This document shows positions 8,368 to 63,689 of a stretch of DNA of 64,000 bases, one piece after another. The stretch is taken from positions 1,426,001 to 1,490,000 of the forward strand of contig JAGTXK010000055.1 in assembly GCA_019096195.1 (NCBI GenBank), written 5' to 3'. This DNA is from Boletus sp. NGJ (Eukaryota > Basidiomycota > Agaricomycetes > Boletales > Boletaceae). The notes under the pieces are model-generated. The model did not search any database. It had not been told where the DNA came from and worked only from the letters and a program-made list of their open reading frames with translations. The translations under genes were made by a program, and so were the position numbers. The first letter of the stretch is position 1; each line of letters starts with the position of its first letter.

Positions 8368-10106
8368 TCATGAAAGCAAAGAAGGCATCATGAACGCCGC
8401 CGAGTACGACGACGTGCCTGACAGGGAGGTATCCGCGTTGATAGATGACAAAGCATAGGATAAGGAGGGCTGAGTAGGGAGGTTGGAGCGCGGTATGCAT
8501 TGCCCTGGCATATGGGTATAGGTGGGCAAAAGGGAGTCGGCGTGATAAGCGGACTGTGGACTTGGTGTCCTTTCCGGGCGGCCATGGTATTTTTGGATGC
8601 CGATGAGCTTCGCAGCAGGCATGCTTTCACACTGCCCTCTATCCAGATCGTAAAAGATGACTGCAAGGACCTCTTCGTTTACAATAATTTTTTGCACAAT
8701 ACAAGTCGGCGAGGCTATGATGGGCACGTGGTGAACATGAGGGTGTGCAGATGGTTACGAAAAGGATTACTCACTGGAGTCAAGCCACCGACTGCGACTC
8801 AACGGTGAGTCAGGGAGAAGCAGTGTAATGCTCTCCAACTGATCGTTCCCGGTTGAGTCCGCAGTCATCATAGTACAATGGTTACCCTCTCGAGAGGTGC
8901 ACTGGCCGCGTACGAAAACGGCAGTGGAACACCTCACTGTGGCACAAGGCCGCATGGTGCATGTGAGGGAGGCTTGGAAGCCGTGTAGTGCTGGAAAGCA
9001 TGGTACGTCAATCGGTGGGAGATGTAGCTTGATTCTCAGGACTAGTGCTGGGGAAGGGTGGACGGACGGCTGTGTAGAGGATATAAGAGCGTCCACAGGA
9101 AGCGTCAGGGTCGGCATGCCCTCTGCCCAGAGGGAAAACCTGATGAATGCGGTGGGACATGGGGGGGGTTCAGCGGAGAAGAGGGAAGAGTTGGTGAATA
9201 GGAGGGGGGAATCGGAGAGGCTGGGCTGGTTGGAGGGCTCGGGGGAATAGTGTGAGGTGAATTCGAACGATTGATCGATGGCGGTGTAGAGGGTGCTCGG
9301 ACAGGATTGAGTTGCCGAGGGCCGCCCGAGGTCGCAAGTCCAGTAGGATGAGAGGGGGGAGAGTCGGCGAGGATCTGTGCGATGACAGTCGGACGCAGAT
9401 AGCGACCGAACACGACGTGAGTCGTCGTCGATTCGGGACGGACGGATGCCGTGCAGATGTGGGAGGGTGAGTTCCGAGGTGGAACTCACGGTGGGGCTGG
9501 ACCCGGAACAGAGGGACCGGGGCGGGCATGTCGAAGTAGCCGAGCCGCCAGAGCGATCGGATGCCGGTGAGTGATCATCGAAAAGGCCTGCGGGAGTGAG
9601 GAGATGGGCGTCGGGGGAGTCTTCGGCCTTGACGGTGGGGAGGGCGGTTTCGAGGAAGAGCTCCTCGCCACCTGCGACGAGATGGTATTCTGAGAGAGGG
9701 GCTGAGGGGAGGAGGGGGTGGGTGGGGGTGGGGGTGAGACATACCTGGTTCGCCCTTCCACATGTTTCTGAGGACCTGGATGTGGCTCGCGACTTGTTTC
9801 TTTGAACGGTCGACGCCGTGCTTCTGGAGATAGTCGACGAGGAACTGGTTTCTCCAGCGACTGCGACCACGGGAGTAGGTTGCCCAGGGAGATTCCCAGT
9901 ACTCGCGAAGGCCTAGAGAAAAGGGTGAGGAAGGGGGGTTGTGGGTAGAGGGAGGAGGACGGGCCTTGTACGAATATGCGCTCGATGTCCTCGGGCCAGA
10001 CCTCGCTGGAGCCGTCCTTGAGGAGCTTCCTGTGCTTGCGCTGTGGGGTGAGGGACTTTGTGGAGGCGTCGGTGTCGTAGGGTTGGTTTAGTCGTGAGGG
10101 ACGCAT
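8368..10106 (-). CDS. TEA/ATTS-domain transcription factor (AbaA/Tec1/TEAD class), first of two
   Basis: The TEA domain is a DNA-binding fold used in fungal development (AbaA, Tec1). The start is the ATG at 10106 (MRPSRLNQPYDTD). The first part of the domain (EVWPEDIERIFVQG) lies in exon 1. The next exon gives REYWESPWATYSRGRSRWR and the recognition helix RSKKQVASHIQVLRNMW. The following exon reads EYHLVAGGEELFLE. The rest is Ser/Pro-rich with a folded-looking stretch (WAEGMPTLTLPVDAL), and the last exon contains VQKIIVNEEVLAVIFYDLD and ends at 8368-8370. The intron between IFVQG and LREYW (9913-9964) would start with GC rather than GT. A TEA domain is clear, but the exact regulatory role is unknown. 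It is divergent from VPS23. Confidence 0.85.
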
Positions 10107-10493
10107 TGTGAGGGAGAGGACGAGGAATGGGGGGAGAGGAGGAGGAGGAGGAGGAGGGTTATATATATGTGAGACAGGAGAGACGAGGAGGCGAAGGCTA
10201 AAGATCCGGTTTGGCATCAAGGACCCGCTGGTTCGGACACGTCTAATTGAAAATGCCCTGGCATTGGCGAGATGCCGATCGGGATGTTCGTGAGAATTTG
10301 TGCAGCACCCAATCATCACGTCACATCCCGTCACAAAATAGAGTTCGTGCCACGCGGAAATGGAAAGTGGCAGGTGGGACAGATCTAAGCGCGGCACCCC
10401 TCCGTTCGGGGTCCCCAAGCGCTCCGGCCCGGATTCAGTCGCCGCCCGAACTCGACGGCCATGGGACGGGGCACGACGGGGACGAGCGCACCA
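10107..10493. promoter_or_regulatory. Divergent intergenic region, TEA factor / VPS23, with purine repeat and TATA-like run
   Basis: The 387 bases hold a GGA trinucleotide repeat at about 10135-10158 followed directly by an alternating TATATATA run at 10159-10167. Read on the minus strand, this gives a TATA-like element about 55 bases upstream of the TEA-factor ATG, followed by a CCT-repeat pyrimidine tract. That arrangement fits a fungal core promoter. The VPS23 side shows no clear element. Confidence 0.45.
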
Positions 10494-12290
10494 ATGGCAG
10501 AGACACGCCAATGGCTGCGACAGAGCGCGGCGTCGTACGAGGACAGGGAGCGGGTCTGTGCGGACGTCGAGGTCGTGCTCGGCGGGTTCCCTGCGCTGCG
10601 GCCGAGGTCGGACGTGTACAGTGAGCGGTAGTCTCGCCGGTCGATCCGATTCACGACTGATCATCGCACCCGCAGCGTACGACGACGGCCGTGCCCAGCT
10701 CCTCCTCTGCATACACGGTCTCCTCCCCATCTCATTCAGAGGCTCGTCCTACAACATCCCAATCGCAATCTGGCTCACAAAAGACTACCCTCGACACCCC
10801 CCAATCGTCTATGTCGTACCCACCACCGACATGCTCGTACGTCCCAGCAAGCACATCGATCTCAGCGGAAGATGCACCATACAGTACATCCGCGATTGGC
10901 ACAAAAAGCCCGAAGTGAGTCCCTCCTCTCCGTCCCAGCCTTCCCACTTACCTTGTCCGAGCCCTGCAACATCGCCGCCCTCCTCCAAGCGATGCAAGCC
11001 CTCTTCTCCCGTCTCCCCCCCCTTTACGCCAAATCAAAGTCCTCTAGTCCCCATCCAGCCCCACAGCCCCTCCCCTCCCCTCCCTCCGACTCCCCTTCCC
11101 AGCCCTTGTCACTTGCACAATCTCGTCACGATGATCGCCCCGCATTGCCACCGAAACCCATCCCATCCCAACGCCCTACCGCTGCCCCCCTCGGTTATAC
11201 ACAAGTATGCCCATTTTACTCTAAAACACCCCCTTGATCACGATCGCACTCACAGACTGACTTGTACAATCGGCCTCCGCCGCCTCTGCCCCAGCAACCT
11301 CGTGCAGATATCCGTCCACCCCAATATCACCCATCAATACTTCCTCCGCAGCGCTTGTATTCTAGCGACGGAAATACCGTGCGATCAACCATCGAACAGT
11401 CTAGAGAATCATCCTCTCCCACCAGTCCTAATTACCGCACATCAATAACTCCGAACGCCCTTTCATCCGTGCCCTCCCCAAATCCATCAAGTCCGTCGGC
11501 TCATGTACCGCCCCCGGTTCCAGCCCTCCCTTTGTCTCATTCGACCCAGCCTCAACCCCAAGCTCCCCCTCAACCGGTCGTGCAACCTGTCCCCCGTCCG
11601 AACCTGCTCGATGACGAATCCCCTGACCCACAGCCTCCCTCGGATCGAGCACCGCCACGCCCTCCAAATCCAGAACTGCTCCAATTGCATGCCCACGTTC
11701 ATGACAAGATACGATCAGAGCTCTCCTCCCTCTCCCAGCTTATCCTCTTGGAAGCCGATCGCCTCCGTGCTCAACAGGCGGACCTTCTTGCCGGCGAACC
11801 TGCCATCCGTGATGAAATGGCACGACTCGAAGCCGTGAGAGATGTTTGCCGTAACGTCGCAGCAAGGCTGCGGAGCACTGTCGAACATGTCGAACGGAAC
11901 CTCGCCGACTTGCGCCGAAAGGGCGATCCGGAAGTAGATGAATTAGTTTGTTCCACGAGCATAGTCCACAACCAGCAAGCATCTCTTCCACCAATCTGCC
12001 CTCCGGTCACCGCTCACCCTATTCGTGTCCAGGTTGATCAATTTGGTCGCGGAAGACAATGCGATCGAAGATACTATCTACCATTTACATAGGGCCTTGA
12101 ACACTGGCCGCATCGATCTAGAACGTTTTTTGAGGGTGAGCGTTATTCTTCCATTGGTCACATGTTTCTCATATCCCATTCCGTCGCTCAGACGACCCGC
12201 GTGCTCGCGGAAGAACAATTCATGAAAAGGGCGCTCATCGACAAGATTCAGATGGGCATTCCGATGGGAACGAACCTGCCCTATGCCTAG
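10494..12290 (+). CDS. VPS23: ESCRT-I subunit Vps23/Tsg101
   Basis: Vps23 binds ubiquitinated cargo and starts ESCRT sorting at endosomes. The start is the ATG at 10494 (MAETRQWLRQSAASYEDR). Intron 1 is 10621-10675. The UEV domain is complete (DGRAQLLLCIHGLLPISF, YNIPIAIWLTKDYP, PPIVYVVPT, HIDLSGRCTIQYI). Intron 2, about 10915-10961, joins KPE to PCNIAALLQAMQALFS. A long Pro/Ser-rich linker follows to about residue 330, then a coiled coil (LSQLILLEADRLRAQQADLL, VERNLADLRRKG). Last comes the C-terminal steadiness box (AEDNAIEDTIYHLHRAL, ALIDKIQMGIPMG), ending at TAG 12288-12290. This is the standard family layout. A UEV domain without catalytic cysteine is normal for Tsg101. Confidence 0.94.
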
Positions 12291-19125: not shown

Positions 19126-21822
19126 ATGGCCACTCAACCAGGACAAGACGCCAAGTTCTTCCAACGTGGAAAGATCGAGGTACTACATCAGGTTAATTGG
19201 CGTGCCATGATCACCATAGAACTGCTTTTTTTTTTTGCTTTTGCCCAGGAATTCCGCGCTGAGCTCCAAGCTGCAGAAGCAAAGGACAAGAAATTCCAGA
19301 AACGAAGAACGGTTCTCAAGAAGATTGTTGCCAACATAACTATGGGCAACGACAGTACGTGACTCGTTCAATGCACGCCTATCGTCTTCAAACGTGTTCA
19401 TTAACTAGTGTCGCCACTCTTTCATGACGTTGTCCAGTGTATCGGGACCCCTCTGCTTGAGATAAAAAAGAGTAAGTACAATGCCTAGCATCGATTCTAC
19501 TGGAATGTCATTTGTATTGTAGTGGTTTACCTATACCTGGTCAGCTACGGTCGATCCAAAGCAGAACAAATACAAATCGTCATTCCGAGCTTTCTACAGG
19601 TATACCTTTGTATGTTTTTGTCGAACCCAGGCCCACATTTCGTTCCCAGGATTGCAACGATCGCAATCCCCTTATCCGGGCACTCGCCATACGGACGATG
19701 GCGTACATACCCATTCCCGTAGTAACGGAAGCGCTCAGTGAACAACTACGACATTGTATCAAGGATCGGGATCCTTATGTACGCAAGACGGCTGCAATCT
19801 GCGTCGCGAAACTTTACGCTGCCGATCCCAGGAAAGCAGAACGGGCAGGATTCGTTGAAATGCTGAGAGATATGATGCTCGATACCAATGCCACAGTTAT
19901 CGCAAACGCCGTAGCAGCACTCTCGGAGATTGGAGACCGCCAGGATGGTGTCATTTTCCGCCTGAACCTGCCCATAGCGAACAAGCTAATCGCCGCTATG
20001 GCTGAAAGCTCAGAGTAAGTCCGTTCGTACCGTATTATGGGTCTCGCTAATCTGGGATCAAGGTGGGGGCAGATATACATTCTGGATTCTCTTCTACGAT
20101 ACGTCCCGGAACAGCACGCCGACGCGGAAATGATGGCAGAAAGGGTGATTGTACAACTACAACACGCGAACTCAGCTGTGGTTTTGACCACCATCAAAGT
20201 TCTCTTGTATCTCATGAATTACATGGAGAATCGAAGACTCATTGACCACATCTGCAAGAAGATGGGTCCGCCATTGGGTAATACGGTGGCTCTTTCCAAG
20301 GTCGATAGGACTGATTCTGGCCCCCTTAGTTACACTCCTGTCTTCCGGCCCAGAAGTTCAATACGTTGCACTTCGCAACATTTTGCTCATCATCCAACGG
20401 AGACCTACTGTCCTGAAAAATGACGTTAAAGTCTTCTTTTGCAAGTACAACGATCCAATATATGTTAAATTGGCAAAACTGGAAATTATGTACCGACTTG
20501 GGCGTGAAGAGAATGCAAGAGAAGTATTGGCGGAGCTCGAGGAGTAGGTGTCCCAATCATTTCCAGGGGTAAATATTTAAGCGCGAAGTATAGGTACGCG
20601 TCAGAGGTAGACGTCGACTTTGTCCGCAAAGCTGTACGGTCGATAGGTCGGTTGGCCATCAAGGTCGAGGCAGCAGCGGATATATGTATCGAATCTCTTC
20701 TTTCGCTGATCGACACTAAAGTCTCGTATGTCGTTCAAGAGGCCGTGATTGTGACCAAAGATATTTTCAGGCGTTACCCGGGCAGATACGAGGGCATCAT
20801 CCAGAATCTCTGTGAGAACCTCGACGCCCTGGAGGAGCCTGAGGCCAAAGCAGCTATGGTGTGGATACTGGGCCAATTTTCAGACCGGATCGATAACGCC
20901 GATGAACTTCTGGATGACCTAGTGTACAAATTCCTGGAAGAGACCGTCGAGGTACGTGGTTGATTTCAACGACGCCGTATTAATATGGTTAAACAATTAT
21001 AGGTCCAACTGGCGCTTCTGACTGCCGTAGTCAAGCTCTTTATTTACAAATCCTCTTCGGAAACCGCAAAGGCGCTGGTTCACAAGGTGCTGAAGTGGGC
21101 CACCGAAGAAGTAGACAATCCCGACCTGCGGGATCGAGGATTCATGTACTGGAGAATGCTTGCGATGAACCCGGCAGTGGCCGGTGAAATTGTCCTTGCA
21201 GAGAAGCCTCCTATAACAACGGATTCAGATCGAATGGATCGCGGTGCACTCGACCAGTTGCTACTGCACACAGGTACACTTGGTAGCATCTATCACAAAA
21301 ACCCAGAGGTCAGTACTCGCGCATAGATCGTTTACTGGTGTCTGACGTATAACGCAGACTTTTATTCGAAATGCAGCTGGAAGAGCATTGGTGGACAGCC
21401 CCGCACTTAATGCCAACTCCAGAGCAGTTATCGTCCCCCTCACACGCCCCCATCTTCCAACCACCACCATTGCTGTCGCTGGCCCTGGCCCTATTGAACC
21501 ACATACCCGTCATCAGCCTACTGATGCTTCTCCCGATGCGCCGAAATTAGAGCCCAATGTGCCATCGCAAAGGGCTAACCTGCTGGCAAACGATAACCTA
21601 CCAACGGCGGAAGGCCGCAACAGTGCTGGTGATAGTCTTGGGGATGAAGACGCGGATGCTGGTATTGATGGGGACGATGACGACGATGACATCGGTAATA
21701 ATCCTGTCGCGGATCCATACGCAAACCTAGATGGTGCGTTTGGGGGGTATCTGGCGGACCAGCCTCAGCCCATGGTCGGGCGCCAGAAGGGTAACAATGA
21801 CTTGGATGACCTAATGTTTTAA
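19126..21822 (+). CDS. APL2: AP-1 complex beta subunit (beta-adaptin)
   Basis: Large subunit of the clathrin adaptor that works between trans-Golgi and endosomes. The start is the ATG at 19126 ([18 protein letters not shown]). The alpha-solenoid trunk is complete across many exons ([94 protein letters not shown]-like block [15 protein letters not shown]). The tail is a Pro/Ala/Asp-rich hinge with a run of aspartates near 21680 and ends NDLDDLMF with TAA at 21820-21822. There is no C-terminal appendage (ear) domain, as in yeast Apl2. The trunk resembles beta1/beta2 adaptins most, and AP-1 is the usual fungal assignment. Confidence 0.92.
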
Positions 21823-49941: not shown

Positions 49942-52900
49942 ATGTCCTGGCCAAGTCATCCACGACAGGCAGCCTTACCAGACGTCCTCTCTCAACTGCA
50001 GAGCCGGATCACCGAATTCCAGACACTGCTCCCGCTCCTGTGCTTACCGCTCGCCAGAGTAAACTTGTTGCCTCCACGATTCAGAAGATTCAATTCGCTG
50101 CCCAGCGAAGATATGACGGTTGACATCGCAAAGGTATTTCCACCAATCCAACGAGCTTTGCTGGAGTCGATACTGCCGACATGGGAAACTGTTTTGGAAG
50201 AGGAGGGCTGTTCTGCCTTGACACTGCAATACTTTTGTCCAGGTGCATTCTCGAACGCTTCTTCTCCTGCTGGCGATGTGGCTTTATGCGCTTATTCGGC
50301 GATACTTTCCCTTCCGCTACACCGACGATGTGTGGACTTGTTACTGAGGCTCGCGAAGGAATATCCCATCGATAGACTCTTTCATGCGGTGTGTAGAACC
50401 CGTGATCCAGCGAGGAGGTCGGTTGCCTGGGGTGATTGCCTTCGGAATATCTTCGCGGTACCCACAAAGGTAGCCAACGCTTTCAAAGGGCAAGGCATTC
50501 CGACTGATCTTGGCCTGCCTGATTATTATAACAACCTAAGTATACGAACTGAACTTCTCCTCCATGCTTTATCCGAGCATGTTATAGCAGGTCAGTATTT
50601 CGTTACAAGGCGTTTTGGCCGTTGAATTCTTACATGTTCTGCAGAGGATTTATCCCTTGTGTCTCAGCTCTTTTCAAAGCTCGTGCACGTCGGGACATTC
50701 CCAAGCTCAGCTCACCCATCCCCTTCGCAGTCCTCATTCTTTCATTCTACATTGCCGTCCCTCCGACGTAGATTCTTGGACAAGGAAAGCAAATCGTACC
50801 AGCAACTCTGGAACCACACAATAGCGTCATTACCCTCTGTGCTGACGCAGCAAGCTATTCTCATGTCCTTGTTTTCATCGCTTACTTCGCTGGAATCAAC
50901 GTTGGGTACGCCCGCTCGTGACAGGGGCATCGTACGTCGGGAGGCAGCCCTTCTGTGCGACGTAGTTGGCGACGTTGGCCCTCACGATGACCTTTGGAAT
51001 AGTTTGATCTCTGTAATCTTGGCTCGAAGTTGGAGTGAAAATCATTCTCGAGTTTTTGTATGCTGGCTGGCGAGTGGTATGCACTCCTCACAAGGTGATC
51101 TCCATAGCCTTACGAGCCTCTCGCGGTGGATTTTGACCCCCTCCACGATTTAGCGCAAGAAGCTTTCCTTTCTCGCCTCGCTGACGAGTGGAGTGCTTCG
51201 GAACACATCAAGTATTCTCTACTTTCTCGACATCAGTGTAGGTCTTCACTCGTGGAACATGTGGCTCATTACATCGACAACATCTTTTTCAGATATCTCC
51301 ACGTTACTCCTCCTCGTCGCAACACATTTTCCACCATCTTCAAATGAAGTGACGTTAGTTGCACTCTCCCCTTCCTTGGTCTCTGCAGTTGGCGCCTATA
51401 TCAATCACCCTGACGCTAGTGTACGCCGATGTGGTATGTTGGTTGCCGAGGTGGTGGCCAACAGGGTCGGCAAAACCTTGAACTTCGACGATTGGGAAGG
51501 TGATGATGATGGTAGGGTTTGGGCTAGACATCTCAGGCAACTATGCTCCCAGAGAGATATCGACTTTGAGCCTTTGTATGAAGATGATGCTACTCAGGGC
51601 AATGATGGAGAGCCCGGCCGTAATCTGACCACGGAAGTAGCGTCGATGACGGCCGCTTGTCAAAGACCTGTCGCGGGAACTGGCATGCTAGCCCAACGCA
51701 TTGCTGATTACGATTCAGATGATTCTTTGACCGGTTACGCTTCTCCACCGTCCTCACGCTCTTCGTCACCGACGCCGTCAGAGCTGCAGGAGATCGAGAA
51801 AGATCCCACGCTTCGCGTCGGTCAAAAGAAGATACCTCGTCCCGTGTATCTAGCCCAGCTGGGTGAGCTCGTCCGGAGCACTGGAGTTGGATCCTCCGAG
51901 GAAGACCAGGAGGCAGACAAGATTGAAATGGCCATCAATATCGGTGAGGAACTGATCCGCAGGAAGCGTGATTATGGAACAGAGCTAAGTAAGTTTAGCT
52001 GGGTTGGTCATACATCAGTCTTCTCACCTCCTGTGCAGCAGAAAATGCTGCCAACCTTGTCTACGGTTTTATATCCCTGAACAATAAATTCGATCTTGAC
52101 GATTTTGACAACAAGAGACAACGCATCGCGATAGCGTTGGTCACATGCTGTCCCAAAATCTCTGCTGAGTACGTTCCTTATTCGTTCCTTATAATCTCTC
52201 TTCTCTGATGAGCCGCAGGTGCATCATTGAGGAGTTTTTCAAAAACCAGTATTCGTCTGACCAGCGTTCAGTGATGCTGAATGCTCTGGCACTCGGAGCC
52301 AGAGAATTAGCATCACTTCCCATCTATTCCCAAGCCTTACAACCGCTTGCGACCCAACGGACCACTTTTCCAAGTAAACTATTGACGCCTGTATTGCATC
52401 AGAAATACTTGGCCACAAGCTCTGCCTATGCTCTCCAGCCTCTTCTTGAGGATATCACCAAAGCAGCTATTGACAAGAGCCAAGAAGTGACAGCTGACAA
52501 GGTGCCTGAGGTCGTTCGGGAAAGACAGCTGCGGATCAGAAAACCCTCGAAAATCACCGAAGTAGTTTCAGCAAGTACCAAAAGCCCGGTTCCCTTGGCC
52601 CAACGTCCACCGGGCGCAGTATCTTTTACGAGCGTCGCTGCTGAGTGGTTCATAATGCCCCTCGTCAATCGGTTCTGGGTCTTCCTTCGGGACGAGCAGA
52701 CACGGGAGGAGCGGACTGCGCAGCGTGACGTCCTATACCAATATCGCGGTGCTGGGACAGGTCTTATCTTGAACTCTCTTATCCTATCGCCGCTTCTGAG
52801 CACCATGGCGATTCTCGTACATGCATCCCAGAACGCGCCGCAATGGCTTGCGCTTATTGCACCAAACACTCTGGAGCTTGCGGTCACTCTAGGATCCAGG

Positions 52901-56991: not shown

Positions 56992-58559
56992 CTAGGGAGG
57001 AAGACTCGGAGCTGGTGTGCGGCCGTCAAAGTGAATGTTGGGGTAAATGTATGAAATCGGGTATACGGGAGTGGGTTTAATCATGAGGGGTGACGTAAGA
57101 TTTTCGAATGATTCTGGTACGGCATGTCCGGGGAAGTTAATCGTACTCTCGTTTGAAACGCTCTCAGACATGGTCGCGGGACTGGTAACCGCATACGAGT
57201 AAGAAATTCCTCTAGGCAGTCGTGGTACTTCGCTTTCAGATGGAGAGTTGTGGGATCCAGGGGAGTTGACCCTCATTTCCGGACATGTGGGATTGTAATC
57301 GGCGTACATGGCCGGGGGGTACCGAAGGCGGACCTCACCAAGGGTGCCTTCTCGAGGGCCAAGAGGAATGTCGGGATTTTGCGGCCACACCCAGTCAGAA
57401 GCGGGATCAACCTCAAGTCGTTGTTTGTCTGGTGGGATCAATTGAAGAGGATGGAACGGTATATGAAATGCTTGTTGGGCCGGGGGGAGCGGAGAATTGC
57501 AAGAAATACCATTCATTAAGTCATCCTGGGAAACCCATTGATGTGTTGATTGGATTCCAGGAGAGTGGACTGGACGAGAAAAGTGCGTTGTTGAACCCGA
57601 CTCCACTTGCCGACCCTGTATAGGAAGCTTCGAAGCAAGACGACGCATTGATATCGAGAACGCGGACGTATTGAATGCTGAGCCGGCCCGAAATCCTCCA
57701 TTCATCGCATCTTTGAACAGTAACGGGTCTTGGAGCTCGGAAAAGTAGTCGCTATCGAAAGGGTGCAGGGTGCCCGTCGGGCATTGTTGTGGGGAATGAA
57801 ACTCCTGAGGGAAAAAAAAGGGAGGTTGATTGTGGAAATCCGTCGACAAATCAAGCGCATTGCATGAACCGCCATTGAGGGATGATGCTTCCGAAGCACA
57901 AGAAAACATAGAGGAGGTATCGGCGCTGGTATCTGCATTCTGGAGACTGACAGTAAGGCCAAAGTCGCTTTTCAGGTGACGCGTGCTAAAAGAAATATTT
58001 GCGAAGATATCTTGAGAGGATATAGCTTGTGGTGCAGAGAAATGCTCCGAGGGAGGCTGAGAGCGTTCCGAGAAGAGGGGACGCACTAAGAAAGAAATTG
58101 AGAGAGGTAATTTGTGACGATTATCATACAAGACAAACTGGCAGGGTTGTCCTTATGGATTTTTTTCAGCCTCTGGAGGTGACTGGAGACTTGCTTCCTG
58201 GAACGATTTTTGCCAGTTTTTTCCAGAATATAGGATTGAATAAGCTGGCAGCGTCCAAATGACTTGGACCGGTTGCCATCCGATAAGTGTTCGTTTTCGT
58301 GCATAGATACCCGGTAGTATTTGAGACGTCGTTTACCCATTGGTGGGTACAGAGCAACAGCTGGTCGTTATTGCAGAACGGTAGATTACTAAACAAAGAA
58401 GAACCGACCTTCCATGAACGCGGCGTGCACGTCCTCGGGCCACACATCCTCGTATCTTGACTGCTTGAGCTTGCCAGTACCTGGGTCTGTGAGCAGGCTC
58501 TTATCTGGGATGTCGTCTGTTGGAACGGCTGGTTTTATGTCTACCTCAGGGGACTCCAT
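56992..58559 (-). CDS. TEA/ATTS-domain transcription factor (AbaA/Tec1/TEAD class), second of two
   Basis: The start is the ATG at 58559 (MESPEVDIKPAVPTDDIP); an in-frame ATG at 58607 is possible. A full, canonical TEA domain is formed by splicing: YEDVWPEDVHAAFMEA, then ALYPPMGKRRLKYY, then FGRCQLIQSYILEKTGK and the recognition helix NRSRKQVSSHLQRLKKIH. The rest is a Ser/Pro/Asn-rich region without further domains (ISFSTRHLKSDFGLTVSLQ, WVWPQNPDIPLGPREGTLG, PRLPRGISYSYAVTSPAT) ending GRTPAPSLPP at 56992-56994. This domain is closer to AbaA/TEAD than the first TEA gene in the window. It probably regulates development or filament formation, by family knowledge only. It starts 233 bases from the divergent axis-like gene. 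Confidence 0.9.
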
Positions 58560-58791
58560 CTTGTATAAGGTAACGCCAGGGGGAGATGAAAGGTCGCTCC
58601 AGTTCACAAATCATGATCCAACAGCCATGATACGCGTTATATCCTTTGGAACTCCGCGTACTGGTCACATGACTAAAATCACCGATCACGTGGTGGGATA
58701 AGCTCGATAATGTGACTTGGACAGCGAATATCACGTCCCAAACATTCATTTCTGCAAGTACACGCACACAGCCCTCAAGGAGCTGTTCGAC

Positions 58792-61700
58792 ATGCTAAGC
58801 GTTCCAGAAGCCATCAGCGCACTCAGAACAGCCTTACACAGAAAAGGCGTCGAAAGCCATGTACATGATGCGTTCAATCACCTTGCATCTTGCTTGATAC
58901 TTTTGGTACGCATACATGAATTATCATGAATCGTGATCCATATCTAACCAACCCCTTTGTGTAGAACTCTTCGTCTCCTTCGGTGCAGATGATACAAAAA
59001 CTTCGCACTCTGCTCCGCCAACCACTTCTTCCGCTATATAATGCCTGCCTTCAGCCAGCATTGCAGCTTTCTTCTTCTGTCCTCTCCACGGTATTAGGAA
59101 AACTTTGTGACGCACACAATGTTGAAGACGAGGGTTTACGCGCAGCATGGGATGCAACTGCAGAGGTCATCTTGTCCGGCGTCCTTGTAAGATAACGGAA
59201 TAGTGGCGCGTACATGGACAACTAACGTGTTCCACAGGATTTCTTAGATCAGAAAAATGGTGGTGTGTATATCCTTCGTGTTTTTGGGCCAACATCGCTC
59301 AGAGGAACAGGCGATGTCGAATCTGATGGTGCAGTATGGGTGGTTTTGTATCGCATCATTTGCGAATTCTTTTTCCTTGATTCCGGTCGAGGACTGCCAG
59401 TATTCAGCATATCGCTCTGCTTATCCGTGAGCGTATTATGCATATATGCGCTGGATTCTTGATCTAAGTGACTCTTCCCAGGCATACAATACGTTGACAG
59501 ACATTGCTGCCAGGCAAATCACTATTCGGGATGCGCTTCGTCACAGTGATGTTTTGGGCGGGTAACATTTAGTTTTTATTGCTGCGTATACTTCAAATCT
59601 AAATGACTCCTTAACAGCGAACGACTTGGGTCTGTTATATCCAGAACAAGAGGCACTATTTACCCACTTTCTAAGATATAAGTCAATGCTCATAGCCTTC
59701 CATACTAGATTACCTGCTCCTCGAGGCACTCTTGATGTTATTTGCTCGACTTCTCCCCCCTATACACAACACTTCCCAAGGAAAGTCGAGAAGGGTCAAG
59801 TTCGTGAAAGAAGTTCTGGGTTCCCCAAAGCTGTTCAAATGCAGTGCAGAACTGGTCGATATAATGCAAAAGACGTCTGGCACGCACTGGGATGATGTTG
59901 CTGCTCAGATCATTGATGCTCTTGCAAGAAGTGACATTACTTAGTCAGTGGATGATTCAGCGAGGCTCCAATACTAATGCATCTATTCCCAGTCCACAAC
60001 CCTTTTCCATCGATGAGATAGACGTCTGTGGACGCGTTTTCCCCCAGCCCCTCGTAACCGACAGGCTGATCATGGATAAACAAGTTTTCCTTGCGAATAT
60101 CGTCGTTGAAAATGCAGGCTTTGTTACCTCTGATCGTTCTCCATCTCACAACCTTTATTGATAGGATGACCTATGCGAGAGCTTGCAAGTGCCATACTCC
60201 CACATCCGCACAATCACGCTTGATAATGCAGAAGAAAATGTCTCAAAAGGAAAAGTATTGATAATGGTCTATTTGACGTCTCCGCCGTTAGTTGCTAATG
60301 TCGACATGGAATCTCCCGGTGGAAGCCACCTCTACGCAAAGTTTCTGTTGCAGAATGATGCTGTGAGCAGGTTTATGGAGGCGTTACGACGACGTGGTGT
60401 GGTAAGGAGATCAATTGCAGGACAAGTTCCCTACTCATTGGTCACAGGGAAAATTGTGCTTTCTGAGTCCGTTGACGAGAGTGCAGAGAAAGCGAAAGAG
60501 TATCTCGATTGGTTCGGGGCTTAAATTCATAGACGACAGCTCTCCAATACCGCCAACTGCGAGTTTTGAGGGTAAAGTCCAACACGTGAACCAAGGTAAA
60601 AATCCAACCCCCGATTTCTTTTTTTTACCGTTGGTGAAACTGTCTCTCTAGTTTACAAAACAGATATCGAAGACTCGACCACGTCTGAGGCCGTCCCGGC
60701 GCCTCATGTTGGAGATGTGGGCTCTTCTCCGACGCCCAATTCAAAGCCTGCGTTCAAGGACGAAGATTCAGGCCCGGAAGTTTCCGAGTTTGGGTTGACC
60801 GAAGACGTCCCCACCACTCTCAGAAGCACCAGACTGATCCCGCCTACCAATAAATCGTCAAAGCCCATCCAGAATTTTACATTGCCCTTCTCTCCCGGGA
60901 ATTCGACCGGAGCAATACAATTATTTGGCGATGGCGATGAACTCTCAGAAATTTCCGAATTCGAACCCGATCACGAGATGGCTACCAAGCTAGCGGCAAC
61001 CGGAGTATCTACATCTTGCAATCACGAATTGAAACCGACACAACACAAGATCGATCGTATGCATATGATTGAAAGTTCCAGTACCACCTCTGCTACGGGA
61101 ATCAAGAAATCCTCCGAGTCCGTCTCGAAAACCGGAGACTGTACAAAAGGAGTCGCTCAAAAATCACCTGAAACTGGGATACCGCTATTGACCCCAGATT
61201 CCCCGATATTTGGCTCGTCATCTAGCACCCAGATCAATGTTTCGCCAAAGGCACTGTCGAACATAGATACTCTTCTTATCACGGCGGGCAATGAAGTCAA
61301 CGACGGTCTGTCTGTCGTTTCCCAGGAGTTTGTTGGCACAGAAAGGTTGAAGGAACTGGCTGTTGATGAATGCGGGCCCTGTGACACGGAACTTATCATC
61401 GCCTCGGCAAGGAAACCCCCAGCAGGTTTTAGTTCAGCAAAAGACGAACCCGGACAGCACGCCAGGCGCTTTACCTCATCCTCCGGTGTTAACCAGAAAG
61501 GATATTCCCGCATCGAGATCACGAAGGACACGAGCGTCCCGCCCAAGATTGCTGGAAGCCGTCGAAAGAGGGAGACTATCAAATCTTCAAGCAAAGCCAT
61601 CAGCGAAGTTGATGATGAACCCACGCCTCCCCGCAAGAAGAGTCGCGATGATAGACTTGGGATAAAGGAGGATAAGGTCAAGTCTGACAAGACTTCGCTA

Positions 61701-63689
61701 GCTGCCACTTTCATTTCTAAGGCGGAGAGACACTCAAAGACGGTTAAAGGAGCCCCTTCTGGTGTTGACCCGATGAAAGTCGATTTTGACGAACTCCGAG
61801 AAGTCAAGTCAACCTGCCAAGAGACTCGCAGATCATCGAGGATCAGAAAGAGGCAGACGGTGGCAACAAGCGGAGCTCGGGCCAACGGCATGCGTAACAA
61901 GACTCAGAGATGGAAGCCAGCAGACGGTCAGTCGACTTGTGGTATGGAACGTGAGGAATTAAACACCGCTCCGCTACAAGGCACCAGCATCAAGCTCAGT
62001 CACGGTACACCGTCAATCCTCGGTTCACGCCCCATACCAATTCTGACTAGGGAGTCCCCTTTTCCGAATAATAGTAATGTAGTGAGTAATGCCACTTTCA
62101 CAATCTTACACGATATCGAATTGGATTATTCGCTACTCCATAGCCTTTAGTGGAGCTGAGTGCTGATAATATCACTTCTGAGGCGAGTCTACCTCGAGAA
62201 ATGCCGAAGGTCAGCTTTTTGGGTTCGCATCTGACATTAGGAAATTATTGTTCGTAGGCCAGCAACAACCTCCCTTGCAAACCGAGCCAATCAGCCAATC
62301 AGCCACAGAGAGACCTTGACTTCGGTCAACAAGACTTTTTAGATGCTTTGCAGCTTACAGAGGAGCAATACGGTGTCAAACCCGAAGAGACCATAGACGA
62401 TGGACACCTTGGGTCTGACCTACGTACCGTAGACAACGATGTTAGCCAGGTTCAGGGAGTCGTTGAACACTCGGTCTCCTTGAAAAAGAGCGAGGATTCC
62501 GTGGAGGTAATTAGCCTGGCTTTACTGCAGCAGACTGGATTCTTATCGCTAACCAGCTATCGCGACCGGTCGTGGAATCGACACCTCGAACAGAAACTGC
62601 CACCATTGATCTCACCATCGACAATTCTCCGGCTCGAGAGGAGAGTGAGCTACACAAGGCGTCTGTTGATCCTGTGCGTTCAGAGGCAAACATTCAAACG
62701 AAGTTCAGGACTTCCGACTGCATCGCTGTGGAAGAACCTGCCTCTGTCCCATCCCCGCGACATATACGCCGAAGCGTTACCTTTGCATCTCCTATTGAGT
62801 ACGTGCTGGACAAGAAGGTCAAATCCAAGATGCAAGTCAGTTCATCGAGGTCAGTCTTGTGTTCTTTCCTTACAGGAACAAGACACCGACGTGTAGACCC
62901 CCTCCCCCTGTTAACGCCTGAGAAGTCGTCGATCTCCCTCACCCTCCAAGAGCAATATCATCTCTCCCCTCAGGATACCGACAGGAACTGTGAACATGAG
63001 CCGCGAATCACCTGATCAAATCAGCCCACGGGCTACATTACAAAACCTGAAGTCATCACAGGGTAACCATTTTTCTTATGGTATGATACGACAATAACCC
63101 GAGCCGCAGCCGATATCAAAGCCTCAGTGCACAGTCAAACCCGTGATGTGGTTGGGATTCAAGATATCGTGGAGGTGAGTGTTTTTATAGCCTCTCATTC
63201 ACCTGCTTAGACACAAATCTCACAGATACTCAATGAAATTCAAGCTGTACCTGGGCAGCCATTTGCATTGTACTTTGGCATGACTGATCTGATTCCCAGG
63301 TGATTATCAAAGGTATCTCTGATAAATTCAGGAACATCAAAAGAGACGTCCAGCATGGTCGAGATGAACTTATCCAGCAAGTCCTCGATGAGATACAGTG
63401 CATGGTCGTCGAGAAGTAAGATCCTCGCCCTTTTTCAGCAAACACCTTGACAATCATTCTTTGTAGTGCAAAATACTTCAATGAGCTGGTGCGCCTCGAG
63501 GAAGATTACTATAAGAATGGCAAAGCTATCACCTACTGCTGGGAAGAGCTCATCGACTGCAACGACGATATCGCTGTACAGTTCCAAAATGCTTTGAAGG
63601 AACACGATCAGAGTGTATCCGCGAGGACGTTTCCGAAGTCCCTCCTGCCCCTGCAACCGGTCTTTCTTTGCCGTCGCGCGAATGCTTGA
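58792..63689 (+). CDS. Large protein resembling SYCP2/Red1-type meiotic chromosome-axis cores
   Basis: The start is tentative at ATG 58792 (MLSVPEAISALRTALHRKG); the open frame extends upstream. Residues 1-300 look alpha-helical (SVQMIQKLRTLLRQPLLPLY, VLSTVLGKLCDAHNVEDEG, VWVVLYRIICEFFFLD). A beta-rich PH-like module follows: DRLIMDKQVFLANIVVENAG, LQVPYSHIRTITLDNAEEN, KVLIMVYLTSPPLVANVD, ending with helix DAVSRFMEALRRRGV. A basic patch (RKRKSISIGSG) and about 800 disordered Ser/Thr/Lys-rich residues come next. The C-terminus is a coiled coil (IKGISDKFRNIKRDVQHGRD, YFNELVRLEEDYYKNGKAIT) to 63687-63689. ARM-like plus Spt16M-like domain, long linker and terminal coiled coil is the SYCP2/Red1/ASY3 plan. 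I infer that family, not more. Confidence 0.55.

Follow-up and report, generated by a model that had tools for sequence, protein, structure and literature searches.

The window analysed here is a stretch of 64,000 nucleotides (nt) from Boletus sp. NGJ (bases 1426001-1490000 of contig C22), and the genome searched comprises 32.8 Mb in 141 contigs. A gene on the + strand of the window probably encodes a basidiomycete meiotic chromosome-axis core of the Red1/SYCP2 type. The gene was modelled by hand from splice signals. It begins with an ATG at 58792 and ends with a TGA at 63689, exactly the limits proposed in an earlier note on this DNA, and its 18 exons, separated by 17 introns of 42-73 nt, encode 1329 amino acids (aa). 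The gene and the parts of its product are as follows.

58792-63689, + strand: whole gene, 18 exons, 1329 aa (hand splice model; in 17 of 18 exons the model frame outscores the other two)
58792-58905, 58965-59186, 59238-59426, 59482-59561, 59618-59633, 59696-59943, 59993-60122, 60165-60401 and 60448-60595, + strand: exons 1-9 (hand splice model)
60652-62081, 62144-62209, 62258-62506, 62557-62849, 62923-63062, 63110-63174, 63226-63246, 63300-63415 and 63467-63689, + strand: exons 10-18 (hand splice model)
58792-59943, + strand: helix-like N-terminal part, aa 1-289, putatively ARM-like by its residue pattern
59993-60401, + strand: putative PH-like (Spt16M-like) module with a predicted closing helix, aa 290-412 (strand pattern by eye; sub-threshold PF25359 match, E 0.013)
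60478-60498, + strand: basic patch RVQRKRK, aa 423-429 (read from the sequence)
60490-60534, + strand: candidate HORMA-binding closure motif KRKSISIGSGLKFID, aa 427-441 (the protein's best match to the Hop1 tail)
60652-63062, + strand: long, disordered-looking Ser/Thr/Lys-rich linker with SP/TP and a few SQ/TQ sites, aa 462-1187 (composition)
62605-62622, + strand: SUMO-interaction-like motif IDLTID within the linker, aa 1060-1065 (read from the sequence)
63110-63632, + strand: C-terminal coiled-coil candidate within aa 1188-1310 (longest proline-free stretch, best heptad windows)

When codon-usage log-odds are derived from 10 further long open reading frames (ORFs) in the window, taken to be coding (3831 codons), they rank the model frame first of three in every exon except the 16-nt exon 5. 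The N-terminal part, the middle and the coil therefore most likely belong to one gene, as judged from codon usage. Exon 10 alone provides an open frame of 516 codons. Confidence is lowest for the splice sites round exons 3, 5 and 14, and the weak signals include GTTATA, GTTACC and the acceptor at 62922. An in-frame intron at 59263-59334 inside exon 3 was rejected and the segment was kept as exon, its codons scoring as coding (0.090). Two genes in the region, an N-terminal one and a coil-bearing one, would be compatible with the weak splice sites and with a model known here from DNA alone; however, one frame of consistent codon usage spans all 17 introns without a stop, and such a division is very improbable. 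The gene appears to be single-copy, as the N-terminal 412 aa gave five matches in the Boletus genome, all at this locus, and no second copy.

The order of parts is reminiscent of known axis cores. Specifically, aa 1-289 are hydrophobic and helix-like, and aa 290-412 show an alternating-hydrophobic pattern. Ser, Thr and Lys make up 29% of the linker (aa 462-1187) versus 16% of aa 1-412. The 134 residues from 1177 to 1310, at the C-terminus, form the longest stretch of the protein without proline and include its best heptad windows; shuffling the coil segment gave as high a heptad score 48 times in 1000, so that the score is only mildly unusual and weak by itself. The long linker and C-terminal coil of an axis core are thus represented by composition, a proline-free end and heptad windows. 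The architecture put forward in the earlier note holds at the sequence level in the order of its parts, while the PH-like barrel (aa 290-412) and the ARM fold (aa 1-289) were not confirmed. The linker motif IDLTID presumably belongs to the SUMO-interaction class, and axis proteins are known to be under SUMO regulation.

Family searches name little in the protein. The sole Pfam match, below the cut-off, is PF25359 (Metazoan RdRP associated PH-like domain), with E 0.12, 0.037 and 0.013 for queries of 461, 206 and 121 aa, respectively. No ARM family was found for the N-terminal part in Pfam or the Protein Data Bank (PDB) at E up to 10, and a Pfam scan of the C-terminal 874 aa (E up to 10) returned no family. 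The coil showed no similarity to any known axis coil in Pfam or by phmmer against the PDB; its PDB matches, the best being designed TIM barrels (E 0.024), were judged to be chance. In the PDB phmmer search the 121-aa segment matches ribonuclease inhibitor (E 0.001) and NLRP14 (E 0.002), as would be expected if the gene encoded a leucine-rich-repeat (LRR) protein and the PH-like stretch were a short LRR. However, this signal fades with longer queries: the 206-aa query gives a best E of 0.053, with no single domain better than 5.8 and the score summed over the repeats of the target, and the 461-aa query has no PDB match at all. Tandem LRR units are not seen. The segment holds one relaxed motif, as do 686 of 2000 shuffles, the protein holds no strict motif, and Pfam returned no LRR family. 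The LRR reading is hardly credible and was rejected.

A Hop1-type HORMA gene (L011) is located on the same contig, at C22 1060588-1063984 on the - strand, about 420 kb from the candidate axis gene. Its HORMA domain scores E 1.5e-11 exon-wise and 5.8e-46 after hand splicing, so a Hop1-type HORMA gene, which the earlier note had suggested looking for, is present in the same genome. About 2 kb downstream of the HORMA domain, the same strand has an open frame whose last residues before the stop are ...NSKRKAEGDSNKTTKRLKVSIGTAVDLCD. The tail read as the C-terminus of the Hop1-type gene, KRLKVSIGTAVDLCD, is basic and contains SIG. Between HORMA and tail lies a Cys/His-rich sequence, which fits the PHD part described for opisthokont Hop1 in PMC10907721, although Pfam named no domain in it. 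Two further places in the genome give weak HORMA matches and perhaps represent other HORMA genes, C21:178733-179077 (E 0.0015, three stops inside) and C130:62500-62640 (E 0.013).

According to PMC6349405, the closure motif of SYCP2 and of Red1 comes directly after the ordered N-terminal domain, and that of SYCP2 is similar to the C-termini of HORMADs. In mouse, deletion of the exon for SYCP2 395-419 is reported to remove HORMAD2 from axes (PMC13396342). The candidate should therefore share a motif with its own Hop1 tail after aa 412, and the earlier note had placed such a motif at about 60440-60660. Consistent with this, the best place for the Hop1 tail in the entire protein is aa 427-441 (60490-60534), just after the PH-like part, with a score of 31 against 24 for the next best. 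The two segments align without gaps in the pattern KR...SIG......D. When the predicted stretch, aa 413-480, is shuffled 5000 times, the score is reached 3, 11, 18, 27 and 52 times with tails of 16, 18, 20, 24 and 29 aa, respectively. Among 1752 other 68-aa segments from a six-frame translation of the window, only 3 score as high, and two of these are overlapping pieces of one ORF. Judged by letters, the evidence for a motif at this place is good where the place counts as predicted, but otherwise modest.

Taken with the HORMA gene and the single copy, the putative closure motif, which the protein carries after its N-terminal part at the level of sequence alone, argues that the gene encodes a basidiomycete Red1/SYCP2-type axis core. 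We regard this as probable, not proven, with a probability of about two in three; a significant SYCP2 or Red1 match and a usable fold were not obtained. Several results weigh against it. Pfam searches with the N-terminal part, the linker plus coil, the PH-like part and the coil (E up to 10) found no SYCP2 or Red1 match, and phmmer against the PDB found no axis-core homologue. In five set-ups against mouse SYCP2 (PDB 5iwz), 56 to 236 of 300 shuffles score equally high. The profile-profile comparison that the earlier note had proposed failed to link the protein to SYCP2/Red1 (hhalign Prob 0.3), and structure prediction, which the note had proposed for the N-terminal 450 residues, yielded no usable fold for the PH-like exons: their AlphaFold model, read through the 42-nt intron and without relatives, has a pLDDT of 32 and is unusable for a fold search. 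On the side of the motif, whole-protein shuffles reach the score in 31, 57, 93, 217 and 418 of 2000 cases for tails of 16, 18, 20, 24 and 29 aa. Elsewhere in the window, ORF segments give scores of 33 to 40, including one at 20508-20960 with 33. A whole-genome search with the 26-aa tail matched only the tail itself. The SYCP2 closure motif, in the form used for the comparison, does not match aa 413-480 (3173 of 5000 shuffles are as good). Nuclear localisation of an ordinary kind could account for a basic stretch with SIG behind it, and the tail, 2 kb downstream over several introns, is only presumed to belong to the HORMA gene. A likeness of aa 413-480 to the SYCP2 closure motif that had been noticed by eye was lost in the shuffle test.

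These searches are to be read with their controls. Mouse SYCP2 is recovered by the Pfam search with 9.9e-69 and 1.5e-45. The Pfam Red1 model (PF07964) matches neither the protein (E up to 10) nor the genome, the genome search having no control match. Exon-wise genome searches with the SYCP2_SLD, SYCP2_ARLD, Red1 and Cor1 models likewise gave no axis-core match, without a working control: in 14 control genomes three of the models found nothing, and Cor1 gave only a below-cut-off match in one archaeon. In PMC8131943, membership of the SYCP2 family is defined by significant similarity of the last ARM repeats and PH domain to known members; there, BLAST outside Metazoa had failed earlier, and defining the family needed iterative profile hopping through intermediates. 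The missing SYCP2/Red1 match is therefore not decisive.

The same observations bear on two further readings. If the protein were an unrelated, fast-evolving nuclear protein, its likeness to the Hop1 tail would be a chance resemblance between two basic stretches. The modest whole-protein shuffles (those for the last 20 and 29 aa included), the window segment that scores above 31 and the lack of a homologue in the searches made are in keeping with this. However, the match lies in a stretch named beforehand, where 3-52 of 5000 shuffles equal it, it is the best in the protein, and every part stands in the expected order; we consider chance quite unlikely. Alternatively, the product may not be the axis core at all: a nuclear scaffold, ARM-like and PH-like in part and bearing a coil, could bind Hop1, Rev7 or Mad2 as its HORMA protein and act, for instance, as an accessory to recombination or as a mitotic factor. 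The evidence of architecture is the same for it as for the axis core, and the genome also has the two weak HORMA places. Against it, the motif follows the N-terminal part and precedes a long linker and a C-terminal coil, the order described for SYCP2 and Red1 in PMC6349405, and the Pfam Red1, SYCP2 and Cor1 models, without a working control, gave no other candidate in the genome. A scaffold outside the axis is thus unlikely.

Compared with mammalian SYCP2 (Pfam SYCP2_ARLD and SYCP2_SLD; PDB 5iwz), the Boletus protein is of the same length class and has the same order of parts, with a candidate closure motif directly behind the N-terminal part, a long linker and a putative C-terminal coil. Other than that, there is no detectable sequence similarity, and the closure-motif letters (those of SYCP2 in the form compared) do not match. 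Budding yeast Red1 (PF07964) similarly has an ordered N-terminal part, followed at once by the Hop1-binding motif, a disordered linker and a C-terminal coil, as described in PMC6349405, although its Pfam model has no match in the Boletus protein or, without a working control, in the genome. Red1 of the ascomycete Sordaria macrospora resembles the Boletus candidate as a fungal axis core that is single-copy and has a coil at its C-terminus, but it is reported in PMC12758814 to have 839 aa and a predicted Hop1-binding motif at aa 1-30. Sordaria Hop1 is reported in PMC11244814 to lack a clear closure motif, whereas in Boletus candidate motifs are seen in both proteins. In its arrangement, the Boletus pair would therefore resemble yeast and animals more than Sordaria. 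RED1 and HOP1 of the brown alga Ectocarpus, described in PMC12678776, share a lineage-specific closure motif and show ARM, PH and coil in order; their motif is different, namely (K/R)C(S/G)LA(K/R), and is present in several copies in the axis protein.

The gene, its order of parts, the Hop1-type HORMA gene on the contig and the shared motif are seen in the sequence, whereas the folds, binding, oligomerisation and meiotic expression of the candidate axis core are inferred. The C-terminal coil would oligomerise into filaments along the cohesin-bound bases of the chromosomes, and the long linker would leave the N-terminal part mobile. The HORMA domain of Hop1 would close round the motif at aa 427-441, so that Hop1 is loaded on the axis, where it would promote break formation and partner choice. 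Because the Hop1 tail carries a like motif, self-closure of Hop1 or closure on another Hop1 molecule could occur too, and the two motifs would compete. More broadly, and with somewhat less than even confidence, we suggest that basidiomycetes, unlike Sordaria, retain the ancestral axis core in its animal-like form (ARM, PH, closure motif, linker and coil), and that Hop1 and the axis core carry a matched, lineage-specific motif of the SIG type, with self-closure and axis binding competing for one HORMA site. Also in favour of an axis core, the genome contains parts of the meiotic toolkit, namely Mnd1 and two places with a Rad21/Rec8 N-terminal domain of the kleisin type; a Spo11-type domain is seen below threshold only (E 0.017).

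Coprinopsis and similar mushrooms, with their synchronous prophase, are classic objects of meiosis research. Coprinopsis hop1, spo11, rec8 and dmc1 are reported in PMC2944786 to be meiotically expressed. In the open-licence literature on SYCP2/Red1 in basidiomycetes, Coprinopsis, mushrooms and Agaricomycetes no description of a mushroom axis core was found, the matches being a general survey (PMC4132317) and a paper on animal germ cells. A basidiomycete axis core is likewise absent among the matches listed from broader searches of open-licence papers. PMC8131943 reports SYCP2-3 genes from many different fungi and none from Ustilaginomycotina. Fungal members of the SYCP2 family are thus already reported, and we claim no priority for the Boletus candidate. 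A named candidate with a precise putative Hop1-binding site makes basidiomycete axis assembly directly testable, and, if the interpretation is true, Dikarya would have kept an animal-like order of parts.

In the upstream region, the promoter element ACGCGT at 58632 is uninformative, as the window contains 14 copies versus 12.5 expected, and a sigma-70 promoter scan has no meaning in a fungus. The divergent neighbour of the gene contains a TEA/ATTS transcription factor domain, at 58166-58572 on the - strand with the ORF at 56992-58152 (- strand), which gives PF01285 at E 5.1e-24 when joined by hand. A second TEA-like domain was noticed by eye in the ORF list at 9486-10748 on the - strand (SSEVWPEDIERIFVQG ... 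KKQVASHIQVLRN). The window also contains, at 51154-52077 on the + strand, a match to the Telomere length regulation protein (Tel2) family (PF10193, E 1.8e-06). The dense short introns are in keeping with a basidiomycete, as are nineteen exon-level matches to DUF6533, a family typical of Agaricomycetes.

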